DNA of 64,000 nucleotides from a virus, in the IMG/VR virus record IMGVR_UViG_3300023174_000033, positions 310,001 to 374,000 of that record. One strand, given 5' to 3'. The position numbers and the translations under genes were made by a program. Shown here in pieces: positions 45,225-64,000 of the stretch (position 1 is its first letter; each line of letters starts with the position of its first letter). The notes beneath the pieces are model-generated. The model was not told the DNA's origin. It did no database searches and saw nothing but the letters and a program-made list of their open reading frames with translations.

Positions 45225-46862
45225 TCAAATGTTCATCTTGAGTACCTTATATGGATACTCTCTCTTTTTATAAAACTTTTCTCTTTCCAAGAAATGTTTA
45301 TAGAGTATATTGTTCATATTATTTGAATCAAACACATCCACTAAATCAAAAATCGTTGCAACTTTCTTTTGGTTGTGTTTTCTTAAAGCTCTTCCGATTG
45401 ATTGGATTATTATTTGTTCAGATTTGAAAGAATCAGCAAATATAACATTGAAAATCGCATTTATTGACACACCTGTTGATAATGTGCCATAAGATGCGAC
45501 TAGAACTTTAACATTACCATCAGTTTTTTCCATTTCCTTTTTTATAAACTCTCTTTGTTTATTATTTACTTCACCATCAATATAAAAGAATTCTTTATTT
45601 GATATTTCCGATTTCAATTTATTATAAATTTTGGTTCCATACTCAATCGTATGGAACAATAGGAGAGTATTGGAATCACATTTATCAACAATTTTCTTTA
45701 TAAAATCTAATCTTTTATCAGATTGTTGTATGAATTCTTTTTCAAACCTAAAAGCATCAGCACCAGCTCCCATCTTTTTTATATAGTTCAATCTTTCATT
45801 AATCTCACCGGAATCATGATTGAGGATAACCGCTTTAATATTCATCGGAGTGATTGTGCCAGTATCCACAAGTGTTTTAGCATCAATTTTAGTCACATTT
45901 GGACCCAATACTGATTGTATTGTTAAAATCTCAAGACTATCATCCGATGGAAATGTACCACTTACACCAAACCTATTATAAGCGTGTGTAAATGTCCTTT
46001 TTAATATTGAAGTAAGTGTTGTAGATTTTGCACCGTGAGCCTCATCACAAGCAACTGTGTGAAATTGTTTAAAAAATTCTTTTGGCCATTTTTCTAATGA
46101 TTGATAACAACCAATGTAAATGTTTGGTTGAGTGGGACCTGAATATTTTCGTGGCTTATCACTCATTATTTCTTCCATTCGGATATGACAAGGATTATAA
46201 TTTTCATTTGATTCTTGAATCCTCTCAATTTTATGTTCTCTGAAATCTAATACATCACTAAATTTCTCAAGAAAATTTGAACCATAATTGTATTCCATTA
46301 TATTTTCATAAAATTGTGTAACAAGGGTAATTGATGGCACAATAATTAAAAATTTAGCATCAGGTTCTATGTTTTTCAACACATAAAAAATGATAATTGA
46401 TATAACTAAAGATTTACCACCAGAGGTAGCAACCTCGGCCATACAATATCTATTCTTTAATATTTTATAAGCAGTTTCAATTTGATAATCATAAGGTGTA
46501 AAAGGAATCCATTCACCGGTATTTTTATTTTTCATTTTATGGTCCTTGAAAAATTCTTCACAGAACTCCTTCACGGACTCCAACGTAACATCACGATTCA
46601 GTGGGAATTCATCTTTATTTTCAATTTTGAAACTTACTCCTATTTCTTTACAAGCTTTGAAGCATTCTCTCCACAATCCAAAATTAACCTTACCGTTATC
46701 AAAATAAGATTGTTGACCATTCCAAACTCCCATCTTAAATGCGGGCATAAACCGATAACCTTTTACATGGCGTGTAAGCCAAAGGTTAAGTTGGTGATAT
46801 TCAGTTCTAGTTGATTCTTGAACTAATAATTTTTCTTCATTTTGGTCGTATTTGAGAATCAT
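45225..46862 (-). CDS. uvsW: UvsW-like ATP-dependent helicase
   Basis: 545 residues, near T4 UvsW length (587 or 503 by start). The superfamily 2 motifs are complete: Q-like PYDYQIETA, motif I ATSGGKSLV (about 146-154), motif II ACDEAHGAKS (about 270-279), motif III VSGTFPSDD, and motif VI SIGRALRKHNQKK (about 487-499). T4 UvsW unwinds R-loops and branches and regresses forks, ending origin-dependent replication. An N-terminal region WLTRHVKGYRFMPAFKMGVW fits the substrate-binding domain of UvsW. Together with the UvsY-like gene it implies recombination-dependent replication. Confidence 0.85.
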   Translation of the reverse strand: MILKYDQNEEKLLVQESTRTEYHQLNLWLTRHVKGYRFMPAFKMGVWNGQQSYFDNGKVNFGLWRECFKACKEIGVSFKIENKDEFPLNRDVTLESVKEFCEEFFKDHKMKNKNTGEWIPFTPYDYQIETAYKILKNRYCMAEVATSGGKSLVISIIIFYVLKNIEPDAKFLIIVPSITLVTQFYENIMEYNYGSNFLEKFSDVLDFREHKIERIQESNENYNPCHIRMEEIMSDKPRKYSGPTQPNIYIGCYQSLEKWPKEFFKQFHTVACDEAHGAKSTTLTSILKRTFTHAYNRFGVSGTFPSDDSLEILTIQSVLGPNVTKIDAKTLVDTGTITPMNIKAVILNHDSGEINERLNYIKKMGAGADAFRFEKEFIQQSDKRLDFIKKIVDKCDSNTLLLFHTIEYGTKIYNKLKSEISNKEFFYIDGEVNNKQREFIKKEMEKTDGNVKVLVASYGTLSTGVSINAIFNVIFADSFKSEQIIIQSIGRALRKHNQKKVATIFDLVDVFDSNNMNNILYKHFLEREKFYKKREYPYKVLKMNI

Positions 46863-54648: not shown

Positions 54649-55437
54649 ATGGAACAATATTATGACCAAAAAACACTAGGTATCTCTAAACCATATAGAG
54701 ATCATTTCAATAACGATTCTTTTGAGCTTTTCAGAATACATTATCCAAATCTTTATGAAATATTTCCAAATGGATATAGACTTATTTACAAAGATTCACA
54801 AAAAACTGTAAACTCACTTTTTAATAAATTAGGCACAAACTACTCTGCTTATACCTATTTGGTTAATAGTACAATCGAACAAATGGTTAAGACTGGTGTT
54901 GTTGGAAATTCTAGTGAAATAAATCCCTTACAAGAAGATGGGTATAATTCAATAATTGATTATTTAAAGAACAATAAAGAATTCTTTAGTAGTCTTCTTC
55001 CAGAAATGGGTAAGTTAATCAATAGGTCAACTGTTATCGGAGATAGAGCAGAAGTGAGTGCTGAAGAAGTTCTTCGTAAAATATTTGGAAAAGATGTTGA
55101 AATAAGACACACTGCTGGCCTTGGACAAATGGAAGATACCCATGGTGGAAAAGATAGAGTAATTATAAAGAATGGACAGGCATATAATGTTCAAATTAAA
55201 GTTTGTGCAGGAATTGATGAAGAAAATGGAACTTATTATATCAAACATTTAGGTGCTAAATTGTACCCTAACGTAGATATTATGGTTTTCAAAAGAGGAA
55301 ATTGGTTTTATGCTTTTAGAGCAAAAGATGCAAGAGGTATCACAACATTAGAAATATTGGGTAATAGAGAAGGTTATATGATTCCTTCAATTCACAAAAT
55401 TCTGGCGACTAAATTAGAACCCGCTAAAAATATCTAA
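54649..55437 (+). CDS. Nuclease-like protein, possible PD-(D/E)XK fold
   Basis: 262 residues. In the C-terminal half, EVSAEEVLRKIFG, GGKDRVIIKNG and YNVQIKVCAG give the order E ... D ... Q-x-K, the usual active site of restriction-type endonucleases. A conserved-looking HTAGLGQMED precedes it. The N-terminal half is helical. It may cut host DNA or act in repair; the call rests on the motif alone. The 3' end overlaps the convergent DNA polymerase gene by 24 nt. Confidence 0.45.
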   Translation: MEQYYDQKTLGISKPYRDHFNNDSFELFRIHYPNLYEIFPNGYRLIYKDSQKTVNSLFNKLGTNYSAYTYLVNSTIEQMVKTGVVGNSSEINPLQEDGYNSIIDYLKNNKEFFSSLLPEMGKLINRSTVIGDRAEVSAEEVLRKIFGKDVEIRHTAGLGQMEDTHGGKDRVIIKNGQAYNVQIKVCAGIDEENGTYYIKHLGAKLYPNVDIMVFKRGNWFYAFRAKDARGITTLEILGNREGYMIPSIHKILATKLEPAKNI

Positions 55438-56645
55438 AACAACACTTAGTCTTTTTGTGATTAGTGGCATACCAAGTGGTTCAATAATTGAATTTATTGG
55501 TGAGAGAATACACTTTTCAAATTGAGTATCCAAGTCAATCTCGGGAGCCATTTCTATTGGATAAGATCCTCTTATAAAAGCAAAAACTTCATTAACACTT
55601 TTATCTTTACAGTAATAATATTTGATTTTATCACCAGATTTAATGTATTCGTATTTGTTTTGTAAAGCTTTATTCTTATTTAATAAGAAATTGTGATAAG
55701 CAGAAGCCTTTACAGCAAAGTGGGCACCACTTACAAATTCTAACTTATCCTTATCGTTCAATACTTTTTCACCATACTTTGAACAAGATGATTGCATACA
55801 AATCTCATCAATTCTATCAGGAACACATAGGTCAAACTCTTTTTTAAGGTTCTTTACAAGTTTTAATAACTCCTTTATATTAAATGAGTCAGGATGCTCA
55901 AAAAGATATTTAACAATACCAATAATCTTATCCCTTGCAAATAGTGGTGTTGATGATCTAACAAGTTCTACACCTTTTGGGAAGATATATGACATCCTAT
56001 CATAAGGAATTCCATCTTCATATACAATATGTTGAATATACTTTTTCTTTGCAATAGAAATAATAGATTCGGAAATCCTTTCAAGTTCAAAATCTTGTTT
56101 ATTCTCAACTCCGTAAGTAGCAGCATGTTCATCTAAACACTTTTTGAAATATCCAGCATATCTATTTTTATCAAGAGCATGGATAAAATCTAACTCTGAT
56201 GAATATTGATGTTTCCACTCACAATGATCCATTGCTGGTTTGAATGATACAAATAATGAATCAGTATCTGCATAAATAGAAACTTCTTCACCCCTTGGAA
56301 TTGGTGTGACATTTTTAAGGTTCATTGCTTGGTGAAGTTCTGTATCTAAGTGCCATTGATTATACCAATAGTCCTCATTTACTTGGTTCATTGTTTGAGT
56401 AAGATTACGACCTTCTGCTGTGATTGTACCAGCTACATAGTTGTTAAACAAAATGAAATAAGGTGCGGCGAATGCTCCGTCCTGTGGTGCCCCCTCACCC
56501 GAAGATGAGGGGGCTAAAAGTAGGACCCATTAAGTACGAGCTTCAATCCGGTCTGTAAAGCGTTGTAATATTCAACATCCCTTTTAAGTTCCGAAGCTTG
56601 TCTTTTTAGGTCCTCTAATTTTTTAATTTTTGACTCTTTTGACAT
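55414..56645 (-). CDS. DNA polymerase family B, C-terminal (palm-thumb) subunit, interrupted within motif B
   Basis: Two frames make up one polymerase piece. The first runs from ATG 56645 for 43 codons to UAG at 56516-56514 and ends LQTGLKLVLNGSYF. The second is open from before GGA 56478 to 55414 and reads GAFAAPYFILFNN, then motif C IYADTDSLFVSF, KKKY, the KGVELVRS thumb motif and a clamp-binding-like end VLDIFSGF. Joined, they give K-x-x-LNGSY-GAFA, the family B motif B (T4 NSLYGA). The exonuclease and N-terminal palm are not in the window, so the polymerase is split, as in some Aeromonas T4-like phages. Continued synthesis needs bypassing or frameshifting across 56470-56519. Order clamp, purB, polymerase resembles the T4 45-43 region. 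Confidence 0.8.
56470..56519 (-). promoter_or_regulatory. Candidate translational bypass (coding gap) element in polymerase motif B
   Basis: Read on the minus strand: UUU (56519-56517), UAG stop (56516-56514), then a hairpin whose arms GCCCCCUCAUC and GGUGAGGGGGC (56514-56489) enclose a UUCG tetraloop. The G of UAG is the first paired base. After the hairpin come ACCACAGGAC and GGA GCA UUC. A jump from UUU to the cognate UUC (56472-56470) omits 44 nt between codons; a jump joining UAC to GGA removes 41 nt and restores the consensus Y-G. An AGGA lies 7 nt before UUC. The GC-rich hairpin is unlike its AT-rich surroundings. A stop beside the take-off codon, a UUCG hairpin and a gap near 50 nt are also features of T4 gene 60. 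Confidence 0.6.
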
Positions 56646-56711
56646 AGGAATTTTATAAAAAAACACCGAAAAGTTTAACAGGAACCCATGGGGCTTTTAT
56701 ATATATATCTT

Positions 56712-57563
56712 ATGCTTAAATCAGAAAAAATAACAATACCAATATCATATAGAAATGTAAGTCACTACATGAAATTGGGTTATGATGCTAAAATAAATCA
56801 AGACTTGGAAATTTATGTCAAAGACTTACCAGCAGTATCCCATGTGAAGATAAATGTCATTTGTGAAATTTGTAAAATAGAAAAGAATTTGATGTATTGT
56901 AAATATTTAAAAAATAAAAGCATGCATGGGTTTTATGGATGTAAATCTTGTTCGAGACAAAAAGCAGTTCTTACTAGTAGACAGATGTACGGCGTAGATA
57001 ATTGGATGCAGTTAGAAGAATCAAAAAAAATTATAAGTCAAAGAAATATAGAAAAGTATGGTGTTAAAACTACATTATTAGTAAGTGAAACTCAGGATAA
57101 AATATCCAAAACCATGATGTCAAAATATAATACCGATAAATGGTATGAAATAAGAACTCCGAATACGAAAAAATTTGTTTTCAAAAATTTAGAATCCAAG
57201 GAATTCATATTTGAAAATCCAGAGGAACAATATGTAGATATTTATGATGAAAATTACTACACTTATAGAACTGAAGTAAGGAGAATAACAAAGAGGAATC
57301 AAAAAAAATTGTTCAAAGAGTGGGATGGTTACGATCATTATGATGGTGAATACATTAAGGAAAACTTAACATTAACACCGAATCATAAAGATTATCCATC
57401 AGTAGACCACAAAATTTCCATTTATCATGGATACAAAAATAATTTACATCCAACAATAATAGGGGATTTATCAAATTTATGTATAACTAAAATTAAGATA
57501 AATTCAGCTAAAAGGGATTTGATAGAGGAACAATTCTTACAAATTTTTCAAACTCCAAAATAA
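56712..57563 (+). CDS. Putative homing endonuclease (HNH-like, free-standing)
   Basis: 283 residues from the ATG at 56712. A Cys-containing N-terminal part (NVICEICKIEKN ... GFYGCKSCSRQK) is a zinc-ribbon-like DNA-binding unit. KYGV-type repeats follow (QMYGVDNWMQLEESKK, IEKYGVKTTL), frequent in phage homing endonucleases. The C-terminal PSVDHKISIYHGYKNN and LSNLCITKIKINSAKRD give the His and Asn of an HNH-type site. It is divergent from the interrupted polymerase gene 66 nt away, as expected for a mobile gene that targets that locus. Its 3' end overlaps purB by 16 nt. The exact cleavage family is not certain. Confidence 0.65.
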   Translation: MLKSEKITIPISYRNVSHYMKLGYDAKINQDLEIYVKDLPAVSHVKINVICEICKIEKNLMYCKYLKNKSMHGFYGCKSCSRQKAVLTSRQMYGVDNWMQLEESKKIISQRNIEKYGVKTTLLVSETQDKISKTMMSKYNTDKWYEIRTPNTKKFVFKNLESKEFIFENPEEQYVDIYDENYYTYRTEVRRITKRNQKKLFKEWDGYDHYDGEYIKENLTLTPNHKDYPSVDHKISIYHGYKNNLHPTIIGDLSNLCITKIKINSAKRDLIEEQFLQIFQTPK

Positions 57564-58888
57564 TTAAAAGGTGTTATCAATTTCAATTCATTTTTAACAG
57601 AATCACTAACCTTTAACCCTTCAATAAAGTTCCAAATATCTGACCTTTCAATTTTATCCCTACCTCTAGTTAAATCCTTGAGAGCTTCATAAGGTTTTGG
57701 ATATTTTTCCCTCCTTAGAATTGTTTGGATTCCTTCAGATATAACTACCCAATTGTTTTCCAAGTCTTCATCTATTTTTACCTTGTTGATTACTAATTTA
57801 TCCAAACCTTTCATTATAGAATTAAAGCTTATTTTAATATGTGACATTGGTACACCAATATTTCTCAAAACTGTGGAATCAGTTAAATCCCTCTGTAACC
57901 TACTAATAGGTAACTTTTCTGACAAGTGATTCAGTAAGGAATTGGAAAGTCCTAGATTGCCTTCAGCATTTTCAAAATCAATTGGATTTACTTTATGTGG
58001 CATTGCTGATGATCCAACCTCACCTTCTTTTAACTTTTGTTTGAAATAATCCATTGAAATATACTGCCAAATATCTTTACACAAGTCCAAAAGGATAACA
58101 TTTATTCTTTTTAGGTTATCAAATAGAGCTGAAAGATTGTCATAATGTTCAATTTGTGTGGTATACTGATATCTCTTCAAACCCATACTTGATAGAAATT
58201 CGTTTGAGAATTTAACCCAATCAACATTTGGATAAGCTACAATATGAGCATTGAAATTTCCGGTAGCTCCGCCAAATTTTCCACGAAATTTAATTTGTTC
58301 AATCATTTCAAGCTGATTTTTTAACCTTTCTACAAAGACCATAAGTTCCTTGCCCATTCTTGATGGAGATGCTGGTTGACCATGAGTCCTTGTTAGTATC
58401 ACTATATCATTTGTATCTTCTGCTAGTGATTCAATCTTATCAATTAACTTATGTAAATCAACAATATAGATATTTTGAAACCATTTTCTAATCATTAGAG
58501 GTATAGCTGTATTGTTAATATCTTGTGAGGTAAGTCCAAAATGAACGAATTCTTTATACTCACCCAAACCTACGGTATTAATTTTTTCTTTTAGAAAATA
58601 TTCAAGAGCTTTTACATCATGATTTATTTCTTTTTCAATTTTTTTGATTAGAAAAGCTTCTTCAAGATCAAAATTATTGTAGATGCTTTTTAGTTGGTTT
58701 CGTTGTACATCTTCAAGTATAAAATCAGAGATAATTTTTTTATCAAATAGTAAAATAAAGTATTCAATTTCAACATACAATCTCCATTTTAATAATGCAA
58801 ATTCAGAGAAATAACTTGATAAAGGTTTGGTTTGACTATTATATCTGCCATCTATGGGTGATATATTGAGTAATTCATTATAATCCAT
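57548..58888 (-). CDS. purB: Adenylosuccinate lyase
   Basis: 446 residues from the ATG at 58888, one nt after the clamp stop codon. It has the N-terminal SPIDGRYNSQTKPLSSYFSE of E. coli-type PurB, catalytic His in LTRTHGQPASPSRMG, and the signature GEVGSSAMPHKVNPIDFENAEG. The enzyme splits adenylosuccinate to AMP and also acts on SAICAR in purine synthesis. A phage copy should raise purine nucleotide supply. It could equally serve a modified purine pathway, as adenylosuccinate-type intermediates occur in 2-aminoadenine synthesis; no PurZ-like gene is in the window. Position in the replication operon supports a nucleotide role. Confidence 0.95.
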   Translation of the reverse strand: MDYNELLNISPIDGRYNSQTKPLSSYFSEFALLKWRLYVEIEYFILLFDKKIISDFILEDVQRNQLKSIYNNFDLEEAFLIKKIEKEINHDVKALEYFLKEKINTVGLGEYKEFVHFGLTSQDINNTAIPLMIRKWFQNIYIVDLHKLIDKIESLAEDTNDIVILTRTHGQPASPSRMGKELMVFVERLKNQLEMIEQIKFRGKFGGATGNFNAHIVAYPNVDWVKFSNEFLSSMGLKRYQYTTQIEHYDNLSALFDNLKRINVILLDLCKDIWQYISMDYFKQKLKEGEVGSSAMPHKVNPIDFENAEGNLGLSNSLLNHLSEKLPISRLQRDLTDSTVLRNIGVPMSHIKISFNSIMKGLDKLVINKVKIDEDLENNWVVISEGIQTILRREKYPKPYEALKDLTRGRDKIERSDIWNFIEGLKVSDSVKNELKLITPFNYFGV

Positions 58889-58889
58889 A

Positions 58890-59669
58890 TCAATCTGTTG
58901 AAAAATCTTGTTCAAATGATAACATAAGATTTGATTCATCATCTTTTATAAGAATGAAGTTTTCAAATATGTTGAATTTTATATCTCCCTTATCTAAATC
59001 AATATTAGATAAGTATTTCTTGTTAAACATAATGTGTTGATTTGAAACTTGAACATCATCAACCTCCAATTCCCATTTTGAAATTTCGCTAAAAAAAACT
59101 TTGTTGGTTTGAACATTGATGTTGAGAATTCTATCTTCGTTATTGATTGTAGAAAGTTTTTTTATACTAGTGAAATCTTCCAAACTCACTGTGAAATTCC
59201 ATTTAGATTTTTTCAAATCAAGTTTGGTGTCAATGAATTTCTTATTCAAGTCTCTTATTTTGTGCAATTCAGCTCCTATTGATGAAATCTTTAATTTACC
59301 ATTATGTAAGTGAATAGTTCTAATTTGAAATAAGTTATCTTCATCAGGTACTGTTTTAGCACTTAATTCAAGTTTTATGGATTTTTTTGGGTCAAAGAAT
59401 TTTATATTCTTTACGAATTTAGATGAAGATGTTAAAACAAAATCGTAATTCTCTTCCTCCTCAAAGTTTGAGATATACGTTTTAGTATCCAATAAAAAAC
59501 ATTTCATAGCGGAAACTTGTCCCTCATTACCCAAGATTGAGTAAATCAAGATATGGTCTTTTGAAATTTTCATCTTTATTGTATCTTCAATTCCGGTTAG
59601 ATCTTGTAATTTATCCACAAAAGCGAGGAAATTATCAGAGTTCATAATAAGATTCAGTTTTTTCAACAT
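58890..59669 (-). CDS. DNA polymerase sliding clamp, gp45-like
   Basis: 259 residues (T4 gp45 is 228). The sequence begins MLKKLNLIMNSDNFLAFVDKL and has repeated beta-strand halves, with LSAKTVPDEDNLFQIRTIHL and a second half with SNQHIMFNKKYL. This matches the two- or three-domain clamp fold of gp45, and gp45-type clamps are sequence-diverse, so neighbours matter: it is directly upstream of purB and the polymerase on the same strand. It rings DNA and tethers the polymerase, and in T4 also activates late promoters. Confidence 0.7.
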   Translation of the reverse strand: MLKKLNLIMNSDNFLAFVDKLQDLTGIEDTIKMKISKDHILIYSILGNEGQVSAMKCFLLDTKTYISNFEEEENYDFVLTSSSKFVKNIKFFDPKKSIKLELSAKTVPDEDNLFQIRTIHLHNGKLKISSIGAELHKIRDLNKKFIDTKLDLKKSKWNFTVSLEDFTSIKKLSTINNEDRILNINVQTNKVFFSEISKWELEVDDVQVSNQHIMFNKKYLSNIDLDKGDIKFNIFENFILIKDDESNLMLSFEQDFSTD

Positions 59670-59800: not shown

Positions 59801-62800
59801 ATGGCAACAAACAAAATCGTCAATATCCCACAATGGATCACAGTAGCATCGGCATCAACACCAGAACCAGGATTTAGTACAATCTATCCAAAAAACGGAG
59901 AAATATTTTGGTATGTTCTTGATGATACTAGCACAGAAAAAAGGTTAGCTTTAGATTATTATTGGGGAAAAGGTTTCTCTGCAAGTGCTTTATTACCTTC
60001 TCCAAGTCTTTATGGATATCAAATTGATGTATTGTTGGGTGGTGGTTTAACATTTTCTTCACAAAGTGAGATTACTGTATTTGGTATAACACCAAGTATG
60101 TTATCCATAACTGGAAGTTATGTTGATGGATATGTTTTATCAACTTCAACATATAGTGGTCAATTCAAATGGGTTCCTTACAATTCACCAAATGTTTATG
60201 GTGATGCTAGTAGATTAGCAAAATTTAGTGGCCCTTCAACTTTAACATCATCTCTTATAATTGATACTGGTTCAAGTATAATAATTGGACCTACTCCAGC
60301 TTTCGTATCAGCTTCATTTAGTGTTGCTGGTAATGTAAATGTTGGTAGATTTCTTTATTTCAATGATTCACAAACAAATTATATTGAGAATCAATTAAAT
60401 GGTGGTTTTAATATAAGTACCAGTGATGAATTCTCTGTAAATTTAGCGACTAGTGGTTCATATCCTATAATTGATTTTGATTATGATACCGGTGATATCA
60501 AGAGGTTGAGTTTCATGGGTGGGTTGGTAGAAATAAACGATTACACTTATAGTAATTACTTATCTGCATCAAACTTGGATTATGTTAGTTTTGGTAATAC
60601 TGGTAATGAATTCAAATTAAAGTTAATATCTGGTACCCAAGGAGTTTTACAAATACAAGATGGTGGCCAATCAACTTATAGTGTATTAGTTTCTGATGGA
60701 AGTGGTATTGCTACTTGGCAGAAAATTTCTGGATATAACGGATTAACAAATTCTGGTTTAAATATTGGATTAAATTTATCAACTCGTAGTGGATTAATTG
60801 TTTCTGGCGGATCTGTTAGTTTTGATTATAGTAAAATATCATCACCTATTTCAGTTAGTAATACTGGAACTTTATCACTTGCTACAGTTAGCGTTGTTAC
60901 AGGTGTTACATATGGTTCCGCAACGGAAATTGTTAGATTGAGTGTTGATCAGTTCGGTAGAATTATTAATATTTCAACCGCTTCAGTTACTACAACAACA
61001 GGTCCACAAGGTAGAACTGGTCCACAAGGTACTCGCGGAAATACTGGTCCACAAGGTCCGAGAGGACTAATTGGATTAAATGGTACTACCGGAGCTCAAG
61101 GTAATGGTGGACCAACTGGTCTACAAGGTGCAACTGGCCCACAAGGAACTGGCCCACAAGGTCCAACTGGTCCTGTCGGTTCAACCGGTTTACAAGGTTA
61201 TAGTGGACCTCAAGGTGAAACTGGTCCACAAGGTGAAACTGGTCCACAAGGTTTTTATGGTGATACTGGTCCACAAGGATTACAGGGCGAAACTGGACCA
61301 CAAGGTGATATTGGCCCACAAGGTGTTTATGGTGATACTGGTCCACAAGGTTTACAGGGTCAAATTGGTCCACAGGGATACCAAGGAGATATGGGGCCAC
61401 AGGGATACCAAGGAGATATGGGACCACAAGGTTTCCAGGGTGAAACAGGTCCACAAGGTTATCAAGGTGATATGGGTCCACAAGGATGGCAAGGTGTAAC
61501 AGGACCTCAAGGTTTCCAAGGTGAAACTGGACCACAAGGTGATATGGGTCCACAAGGATGGCAAGGTGTAACAGGACCTCAAGGTTTCCAAGGTGTTTCT
61601 GGTCCACAAGGTGACCAAGGTGATATTGGACCTCAAGGCTTCCAAGGTGAAACAGGTCCACAGGGTTATCAAGGAGATATTGGTTTACAAGGTGAAACTG
61701 GTCCACAGGGATTACAAGGTATATCTGGACCACAGGGTTTACAAGGAGAAACTGGCCCACAAGGTGAAACAGGTCCACAAGGTTATCAAGGAGGTATGGG
61801 ACCACAAGGTTTCCAAGGTGAAACAGGTCCACAAGGTTATCAAGGTGAAACTGGCCCACAGGGTTATCAAGGAGATATAGGACCACAGGGATATCAGGGT
61901 GACATGGGACCACAGGGATATCAGGGTGACATGGGTCCACAAGGTGATATTGGTTATCAAGGTGTGTCTGGTCCACAAGGTGACCAAGGTGATATGGGTC
62001 CTCAAGGGGATATTGGTTTCCAAGGTGACACTGGACCACAAGGATTGCAAGGTTTATCTGGACCGCAAGGTGTTCAAGGTGTAACAGGACCACAAGGTAG
62101 AACAGGGCCTCAAGGTAGAACAGGACCTCAAGGAAGACAAGGTTTAGTAACGACTATTAATCAATCTCCGGTTCAATGGAGATATGAAGGATTGATCGTT
62201 GGAACAGGTCCGGCTCAAAGTAAATTTGAGTCTAATACGAATGTTATAAAAAATGTTGCTACATTTAGGTTTAATTACTTTGATGTGAATAATATTGATT
62301 ATTCCGGTTGGTTTGCTGATTTGGATACTTATATTGTTAATGGACAAAGTTCTTACATTCAAGTTTATGAAAGTTCTTTAACAACACAAAATGGTTTATA
62401 CAAAATTACGGGTGTTAGCACGGCTTCAACGACTCCGGTTTCTTATCAATTAACCGTTACAAATGTTGCTGGTGGTGGTACTTTCAGTGTTGGTAGAACT
62501 TATAGTGTTGTTTGGTCATCATTGCCGGTTGGCCCACAAGGAGATAGTGGTCCACAAGGATTAATTGGTGAAACTGGTTATCAAGGTGAGACTGGACCTC
62601 AAGGTGAAATTGGTTTACAAGGTGTGCAGGGTGTCCAAGGTGTCCAAGGTGTTTCCGGCCCTCAAGGTATTCAAGGAGCTGTTTTACCACTTTCACAAGC
62701 GTTTTCAATTTGGAATTTCAATAGTGCTACATTAAGTACTTTGAGTGAATTCAGTACTAATGATGCTACTCTTCAAAATGTTACAAGTTTTGGAATTTCA

Positions 62801-64000
62801 TATTATGATATCTACAATATTGACCACACAAATTGGTTTGCACAAATAGAAAACTTCGTTCAAAATAATCAAGTAACATATTTATACGTTATTGAAGAAG
62901 GAAATAGCCCGGTTAGAGGTTTATACAGAGTAGACGAAGTTTTTGATAATGGTAGTTTGGGATATGACCTAGGTGTATATCCAATAATATTCGGAGGAAC
63001 CTTCACAAATGGTGTTACTTATTCAATTACTTGGGTTGCTAATGGATCAATGGGTACAACTGGTTCACAAGGTGATATAGGTCCTCAAGGTGATTTCGGA
63101 CCACAAGGTGAGATGGGATTACAAGGGGATATGGGTCCACAAGGTTTCCAAGGTGAAACTGGCCCTCAAGGTTTCCAAGGCGATATGGGACCTCAGGGAG
63201 ACCAAGGTGATATGGGACCTCAAGGTTTCCAAGGAATAATTGGTTTCCAAGGTCAAACTGGACCACAGGGTAGAATGGGTAATACCGGTCTACAGGGTTA
63301 TTCTGGGCCACAAGGTGATACTGGTATTCAAGGTGAAACTGGACCACAAGGTTTCCAAGGTGATTTTGGTTTACAGGGTATGCAAGGTCCTTTAGGAAAC
63401 CCAGCACTTAATATAACTTTCGGACCAACAACTTCAATTTCTGTAACACATAGTAGTTCAGTATATCCTTTGATTCAATTAATTGATACATTTGGAAATA
63501 CTTTCATACCAAACAGCATTATACACACATCTACATCTGAATTTATTTTGAATTTTGCTACTGAATCAAGTGGTACTATAATAATTGGAGGTGGAGCTGG
63601 CCCTCAGGGGGAAATGGGTGTTCAAGGTTATCAAGGGGAAATTGGACCTCAAGGAGACATCGGATTCCAAGGAATTAGCGGACCACAAGGTGAAATGGGT
63701 GTTCAAGGTTATCAAGGAGATATTGGTCCACAAGGTGATATTGGTTTCCAAGGTATTAGTGGTCCACAAGGAGATATGGGACCACAAGGTTATCAAGGTG
63801 ATATGGGTCCACAGGGTAACGAAGGGTTACAAGGTGTTTCTGGACCACAAGGTGACCAAGGTTTGGAAGGTCCACAAGGTGATATGGGTCCACAGGGTGA
63901 CCAAGGTTTTCAAGGTGAAACTGGGCCTCAAGGTTTCCAAGGTTTAGAAGGTCCACAAGGAGATATGGGACCACAGGGTGACCAAGGTTTACAGGGTGTT
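59801..64000 (+). CDS. Long collagen-like tail fibre protein, C-terminus beyond window
   Basis: The frame is open for 1400 codons from ATG 59801 and leaves the window. Residues 1-400 are Ser/Thr/Gly-rich beta-type fibre sequence ([19 protein letters not shown]). From about residue 401 there are long runs of Gly-x-y triplets dominated by GPQ, GFQ, GYQ, GET and GDM, as in phage collagen-like shafts that form triple helices. Two related globular inserts lie at about residues 785-905 and 965-1083, and a third, unrelated one at about 1200-1265. Gln occupies the third position of alternate triplets, which is extreme. It is probably a host-binding fibre. Reverse-strand frames here are repeat shadows. 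Confidence 0.85.
60998..62146 (+). repeat. First collagen-like Gly-x-y block
   Basis: About 380 codons of near-perfect GGN-NNN-NNN triplets, with recurring units such as GGTCCACAAGGT. The DNA repeats imply frequent length change by recombination. Confidence 0.85.
63050..63400 (+). repeat. Collagen-like block after the second insert
   Basis: About 115 codons of GSQ, GPQ, GFQ and GDM triplets; boundaries approximate. Confidence 0.8.
63598..64000 (+). repeat. Collagen-like block running off the window
   Basis: Gly-x-y triplets from GPQGEMGVQ continue to the last base, with two near-identical copies of a [18 protein letters not shown] unit. Confidence 0.8.

Follow-up and report, generated by a model that had tools for sequence, protein, structure and literature searches.

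The window, a stretch of 64,000 nucleotides, corresponds to positions 310,001–374,000 of the IMG/VR virus record IMGVR_UViG_3300023174_000033, which comprises 464,605 bases. The family-B DNA polymerase of this phage is split, and the gene starting at position 56645 of the window encodes its C-terminal half, which is interrupted once more. The N-terminal half is a 501-codon frame located ~133 kb away, with a Lys/Glu-rich stretch at its end. Only these two PolB halves were detected in the 464.6-kb record, and no family-A or PolIII-type DNA polymerase was found there; the interrupted gene is therefore very likely needed by the phage. Upstream of it lies an adenylosuccinate lyase gene (57548–58942; PF00206, PF08328), and at 60798–63974 long open frames with strongly repetitive translations overlap on both strands, which would fit a gene for a long short-repeat protein, possibly collagen-like. 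Seven tRNA-like genes are scattered in the phage genome (record positions 46112, 123127, 222135–222634 and 427193–427397); no tRNA-Tyr is present among the six that were identified (Ile-TAT, Met, Trp, Arg-TCT, Gln and Glu).

Table 1. Features of the interrupted polymerase gene and its neighbour (window positions).
Feature	Position	Strand	Details and basis
Second coding part, family-B polymerase palm and thumb	55414..56478	(-)	starts with GGA 56478-56476 (Gly of motif B); DTDS and KKKY motifs intact
Proposed landing triplet GAC	56479..56481	(-)	mismatched to Tyr UAC; position inferred from resume codon
41-nt non-coding insert (gap) at the Tyr/Gly junction of motif B	56479..56519	(-)	missing from 17 homologs
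GC-rich take-off hairpin, 11 bp, UUCG loop	56489..56514	(-)	fold; equivalent in 31/31 inserts
UAG stop	56514..56516	(-)	second codon after take-off (UAC UUU UAG); direct sequence reading
First coding part, polymerase C-terminal fragment	56517..56645	(-)	43 codons, ATG 56645-56643 to Phe codon TTT 56519-56517; aligned with uninterrupted relatives
Tyr TAC, codon 42, proposed take-off codon	56520..56522	(-)	direct sequence reading
5' stem-loop inside coding sequence, 3' arm touching take-off codon	56523..56613	(-)	RNAfold -26.1 kcal/mol, z = -3.7
Divergent homing-endonuclease-like gene, directly upstream of polymerase gene	56688..57563	(+)	PF24308; phrog_12131, 3.6e-12

The interruption falls within the catalytic motif B. 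The second coding part (PF00136, 1.2e-12; phrog_1918, 2.5e-45) begins at 56478 with GGA GCA TTC (Gly-Ala-Phe), and homologs without an insert match the sequence exactly on both sides of the gap. A first-pass annotation, made without database searches, had described a 43-codon frame ending at UAG, an 11-bp UUCG hairpin and a GAF continuation, and direct reading of the sequence confirms all of these with their coordinates. The spacing of 38 nt that it gave holds when the Phe codon is left out, and is partly corrected, since this extra codon is part of an insert of 41 nt relative to uninterrupted relatives; the same position is occupied elsewhere by Ala, Val, Leu, Cys, Arg, Gly or a stop. The alignment with relatives lacking the insert, which the annotation had proposed as a check, is provided by the 17 uninterrupted homologs, and the junction lies exactly at Tyr|Gly. 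The joined product would read NGSY-GAFAAPYF, with motif B unaltered, and on resumption at GGA would include the tryptic peptide LVLNGSYGAFAAPYFILFNNYVAGTITAEGR; both are inferred from sequence alone, without protein data.

The arms of the window hairpin, GCCCCCUCAUC/UUCG/GGUGAGGGGGC, form 11 bp including one G-U pair, with the G of the stop codon as the first base, and the predicted fold has an energy of -23.0 kcal/mol (46 nt folded). A pattern scan for CCCCC-N4-30-GGGGG hairpins returned this one alone in the window and only one other in the 464.6-kb record. The hairpin and its insert are more than a chance occurrence, given this rarity and because inserts of the same plan and different sequence recur at nearly the same position of the gene in ~30 other phage contigs.

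These relatives were collected by tblastn and pattern scans, which yielded 48 distinct usable homologous junctions. The scans sought CCCC...GGG(G) hairpins and would miss other kinds; no relatives were found in a search of Genome_contigs. The junction is uninterrupted in 17 cases. The other 31 contain an insert; the insertion points are five codons that lie close together, in a ten-codon span at motif B (A L K L V L N G S Y). Sorted by take-off codon, there are 16 inserts at Leu, eight at Tyr, five at Ala, and one each at Val and Ser. The 31 loci share ancestry, and the counts given below do not represent independent events. The insert sequences are very different, while the plan is constant: a take-off codon, 6 nt, a GC-rich hairpin of ~9–12 bp with a short loop, a short spacer, a landing triplet and the resume codon. 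The hairpin is found in all inserts, and starts ~6 nt past the take-off codon in all classes. A stop occurs within the first two codons after take-off in 29/31 inserts, usually as the second codon and not the first, and all three stop codons are represented. The gap from take-off to resumed decoding measures 36–48 nt, with all three remainders mod 3. Identical inserts occur in separate metagenome assemblies (L012/L044, L024/L036, L188/L189 and L175/L182). Hairpins of the same type number essentially one per record; that of L047 terminates a gene and interrupts none, and extra hairpins were located in L329 and L330, where placement relative to genes was not determined.

A second RNA structure precedes the gap. 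The 100 nt preceding each take-off codon were folded, and the energies were expressed as z values relative to synonymous recodings. In the window, GGACCUA (56613–56607) pairs with UGGGUCC (56529–56523) and AGCUUC (56598–56593) with GAAGCU (56544–56539), and the predicted energy of -26.1 kcal/mol compares with -13.1 +/- 3.5 kcal/mol for the recodings (z -3.7). A long 5' stem with its 3' arm at the take-off codon is predicted in 30/31 insert loci, mostly with z below -3.5, the weakest of the 30 being L026 (-1.6). The structure was not found in the uninterrupted homologs, for which z averages ~0 (-1.7 to +1.6 at the Tyr position); at the Leu position two of these have low values (L020, -3.5; L271, -2.8), yet only 0 and 3 of the last 12 nt, respectively, are paired. 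The stem shifts with the insertion site, being GAGCUGAAG/CUUCAGCUC for Ala/Leu, AGCUUCGGAGCUG/CAGCUUUGAAGCU for Val (L043), UUCAUUAAGAAC/GUUCUUAAUGGA for Ser (L015), and GGACCUA/UGGGUCC for Tyr in the window. In the Leu/Ala class it covaries, with 90% of cells paired and double changes in 5/12 pairs, and none of 500 shuffles scored as high. The single exception is L032, a Tyr-class locus that has an insert, no 5' stem-loop and an extended 16-bp hairpin instead. The insert of L032, L033 and L311, which lacks both the 5' stem-loop and an adjacent endonuclease and whose hairpin is lengthened to 16 bp, may be a decaying or an alternative element.

Every insert of the Leu, Ala, Val and Ser classes (23/23) has, immediately ahead of the resume codon, an in-phase triplet that is synonymous with the take-off codon, and the pairs often differ at the wobble base (CUU→CUA, CUG→CUA, GCU→GCU or GCA, GUU→GUU, UCU→UCA). 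Loci within a class are related, so that a cautious count of the rule is four classes out of four. A synonymous landing codon is predicted by peptidyl-tRNA re-pairing, and not by excision or by target-site duplication; the latter was rejected as the source of the repeated codons on account of their codon phase and their frequent wobble-base differences. Ten loci have an in-frame stop, in the resume frame, immediately before the landing codon.

The Tyr class departs from this rule. Take-off and landing match in none of its eight inserts, the window included: the triplets before the resume Gly codon are GAC (window), TAA, TAA, AGC, AAC, AAC, AAC and CAA, and in two loci (L012 and L026) the landing triplet is itself a stop. 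The architecture is otherwise the same, with the 6-nt hairpin offset and a 5' stem in 7/8. Landing in the Tyr class is not explicable by re-pairing, because the triplet never matches UAY, and its mechanism is unexplained. According to a bolder reading, which we put forward tentatively as somewhat less likely than not, the ribosome of the Tyr class would resume on GGA without re-pairing of the peptidyl-tRNA to any matching codon, and landing would be set by the geometry of the mRNA (5' stem-loop, hairpin and short spacer) together with the incoming Gly codon. If true, this would be a mode of bypass undescribed in the open-licence literature searched.

The first-pass annotation had proposed a ribosomal bypass with two possible landings. 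Bypass is supported as the best reading, though bypass itself is not demonstrated, and the support now extends to the 5' stem-loop, the synonymous take-off and landing codons in four other classes, the stops abutting the landing point, purifying selection and the endonuclease neighbour. Of the two landings, the one in which UAC is left for the triplet preceding GGA is favoured: every class has its hairpin ~6 nt downstream of the take-off codon, and the codon that precedes the stop is under no constraint. The weak UAC/GAC pairing that had been pointed out is real, and is a still unexplained feature of the whole Tyr class (8 inserts). The other landing, from UUU to UUC, is disfavoured: the product would lose the Gly-Ala of the motif, and three Tyr-class relatives (L032, L264 and L269) have Val in place of the Phe, with no Val codon nearby to land on. 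Other candidates were also rejected. Take-off at the Gly of NGS with landing on GGA removes Ser-Tyr-Gly and leaves the hairpin 12 nt away, and landing on the downstream Tyr codon removes GAFAAPY. Pairing of the 3' spacer with the coding sequence upstream of take-off was considered as a guide for landing in the Tyr class; such complementarity was notable only in L012 (7 nt, p=0.016), and was not significant for the class overall.

The continuation after the insert is under purifying selection, with dN/dS values of 0.03–0.09 (0.03 for the window and L010), several dS values being saturated in these comparisons. The gene that diverges from the polymerase gene has a match in a PHROG described as homing endonuclease, and a C-terminal HNH-like pattern is recognizable by eye; we propose that it is the mobility gene of the cassette, an inference from sequence without cleavage data. 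An endonuclease-like gene occupies the same divergent position in 15/29 insert loci versus 1/17 uninterrupted ones (Fisher p=0.0016), and 14 of the 29 have no adjacent endonuclease. The counts cover loci with enough upstream sequence, were scored by motif patterns, and the p value is not corrected for ancestry. In L016 and L273, the gene at this position encodes a GIY-YIG/NUMOD3 endonuclease and not an HNH-like one, and L273 has no insert at all. The window genome contains a second endonuclease-like gene at ~250.5 kb (record 250474–250905; L331 10475–10876), which is apparently truncated (134 aa); no inserts of the present type were found near it.

L029, with insert and endonuclease, and L028, with neither, have flanks that are 94–95% identical on both sides; between these flanks, positions -1059 to -5 relative to the resume codon have been replaced as a block. 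L026 and L027 carry different inserts, and have the right border in common with the L029/L028 exchange. The endonuclease, the 5' gene end and the insert have thus been exchanged between close relatives as one block that ends at the resume codon, and the borders in both pairs follow the pattern expected of homing with co-conversion, as inferred from sequence. On a quick protein tree, in which inteins or contig ends cut some rows short, the presence or absence of an insert changes at least 11 times, six of these changes being forced by well-supported branches.

For comparison, T4 gene 60 (NC_000866, L332) was folded as a control. Its published elements are a 5' stem-loop, a take-off stem-loop, matched GGA codons, the nascent peptide KKYK and a gene split by a homing endonuclease (PMC5009743, PMC11194080, PMC2988022), and its insert has been proposed to protect against the HNH endonuclease mobA (PMC5009743). 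In both systems the C-terminal fragment of a split essential replication gene is affected and an endonuclease is associated; the gaps lie near codon 46 in T4 and at codon 42 in the window, span 50 nt in T4 and 36–48 nt in the polymerase inserts, and T4 shares with the window a GC-rich hairpin with a UUCG loop and a 5' stem-loop. Both also have a stop at or near take-off, which in the window is the second codon after it and not the first. Matched take-off and landing codons are likewise common to T4 and four of the five polymerase site classes, unlike the Tyr class. The two differ in the gene, and their elements have no recognisable homology. In the control fold the T4 hairpin includes the take-off GGA and the stop, whereas the polymerase hairpin starts ~6 nt after take-off; the spacing from hairpin to resumption is ~33 nt in T4 versus ~7–15 nt in the polymerase inserts. 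The predicted T4 stem ends 4–9 nt before take-off, depending on the fold (z +0.3 versus synonymous recodings), whereas the polymerase stem abuts the take-off codon and is far more stable. T4 requires KKYK, whereas no dedicated nascent-peptide signal was identified in the insert-bearing polymerase fragments: the window has a Lys-rich N-terminus (KIKKLEDLKR), and uninterrupted homologs have a similar Lys-rich start. Finally, T4 offers one allele, and the polymerase inserts dozens at five sites. With these differences in placement and gene, and because the codon match fails in the Tyr class, the window locus is a variant and not a strict member of T4 gene 60-type bypass.

Other systems are less similar. 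The byp elements of Magnusiomyces capitatus mitochondria are also multiple, translationally bypassed, frame-disrupting inserts (PMC5009743), but are spread over 81 positions of a single genome, in 12 mitochondrial genes, whereas the phages have one insert each, in one gene and often beside a homing endonuclease. The Aeromonas T4-like phages 25 and 44RR encode a family-B polymerase in two genes (43A/43B), and phage 25 has an associated homing endonuclease (PMC2988022). Bypass has not been described in these phages, whereas in the window genome the halves lie ~133 kb apart and the C-terminal one is interrupted again. The terminase of Streptomyces phage Hau3 is a phage gene with a proposed bypass (PMC5009743), but its gap is much shorter, its proposed signals are different, and it has not been demonstrated. 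The view of the first-pass annotation that no bypass had been described in a DNA polymerase gene agrees with the open-licence literature searched, in which none was found.

A programmed translational bypass site within a mobile homing-endonuclease cassette is the best explanation for these data. We consider it likely, on comparative sequence only and without RNA, protein, ribosome or cleavage data: the sequences themselves establish the insert, both conserved RNA structures, the matched codons of four out of five site classes, the purifying selection and the block exchange, and the movement of the ribosome is inferred from the structures by analogy with T4. The putative cassette would consist of the homing endonuclease gene, the beginning (~42 codons) of the gene for the polymerase C-terminal half and the hairpin insert of 36–48 nt, moving together among related huge phages. 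The insert would break the endonuclease target in motif B, rendering the carrier immune while uninterrupted relatives are cut and converted. During translation, a ribosome arriving at the take-off codon, which is Tyr in the window and Leu, Ala, Val or Ser in the other classes, would have the GC hairpin directly in front of it and usually a stop at the next codon or the one after. The peptidyl-tRNA would dissociate from its codon, and the 5' stem-loop, in which the lower base pairs are predicted not to form before the ribosome advances, would refold and so push the ribosome across the gap. Landing would follow 36–48 nt on, normally by re-pairing to the synonymous codon, and motif B would then be made unaltered; in the window, resumption would be at GGA 56478–56476.

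Excision of the insert at the RNA level, which would leave ribosomes a continuous message and would call for an unknown process, either small-intron-like or one of cleavage and ligation, is an unlikely alternative to bypass. It would restore the coding sequence exactly, would require no codon match at the Tyr-class landing triplet, and could use the conserved structures as processing signals. However, no Rfam family matched at E<=1 in 55000–58000. Lengths of 36–48 nt are far below those of known self-splicing introns. Excision also gives no reason why inserts of the Leu, Ala, Val and Ser classes should end in an in-phase codon that is synonymous with the take-off codon and often not identical to it (CUU/CUA, GCU/GCA, UCU/UCA), and predicts neither stops in the first two codons nor a 5' stem-loop abutting the take-off codon. 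A further split of the polymerase, with a 43-residue peptide ending at UAG and a separately initiated remainder assembling non-covalently, finds some support: the halves are already separate genes here, and in Aeromonas phage 25 the two parts of gp43, likewise separate, co-purify with activity (PMC2988022, citing Petrov 2010). We regard it as very unlikely: the break would run through motif B and part K/N/Y from G, the first in-frame start lies 29–38 codons beyond the resume point in many inserts (in the window, a TTG 9 codons in), and the 5' stem-loop and codon pairing would be left unexplained.

Ordinary frameshifting or stop read-through across the insert is less likely still. A stop codon followed by a stable hairpin is compatible with it, and in the window the resume frame is open across the insert, so that a -1 path would add ~14 residues. 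Yet the gap lengths leave every possible remainder on division by three, so that no single shift works. A stop closes the resume frame in 12 loci, either as the landing triplet itself or immediately ahead of it, and in the ten loci of the latter kind frameshifting through the insert is excluded. The use of all three stop codons excludes stop recoding, and added residues would fall in the catalytic motif. An assembly error or a dead allele can be all but ruled out. The evidence does come from metagenomic contigs only, but identical inserts recur across separate assemblies, dozens of different inserts follow one plan, and the downstream sequence remains constrained at the dN/dS values given above.

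Bypass within a mobile cassette would thus appear to have evolved again apart from T4 and to have spread, which we consider likely from the sequences. T4 gene 60 stood nearly alone for decades as an efficient phage bypass, and hence its rules rest on one sequence. The phage inserts provide ~30 natural alleles, distributed over five sites in a catalytic motif and accompanied by uninterrupted controls, on which the importance of 5' stem-loop position, hairpin offset and codon identity can be tested, and the Tyr class represents a natural exception to codon matching. The alleles also support the idea that bypass arises as a cost of immunity to a homing endonuclease, here independently in a second replication gene. 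Polymerases of this kind would be reported as truncated by gene callers.

Some relatives have yet another interruption in this polymerase gene, a split intein at YADTD|S (L014/L174 and L043/L280; partial evidence in L172 and L178). In the L014/L174 and L043/L280 pairs this intein is formed by two separate reading frames ~1.1 kb apart, with an N-part CFSETLV... and a C-part ...FIGNDILVHNSLF. The polymerase of these phages would then depend on its separate N-terminal half, on bypass by the ribosome and on trans-splicing of the protein.
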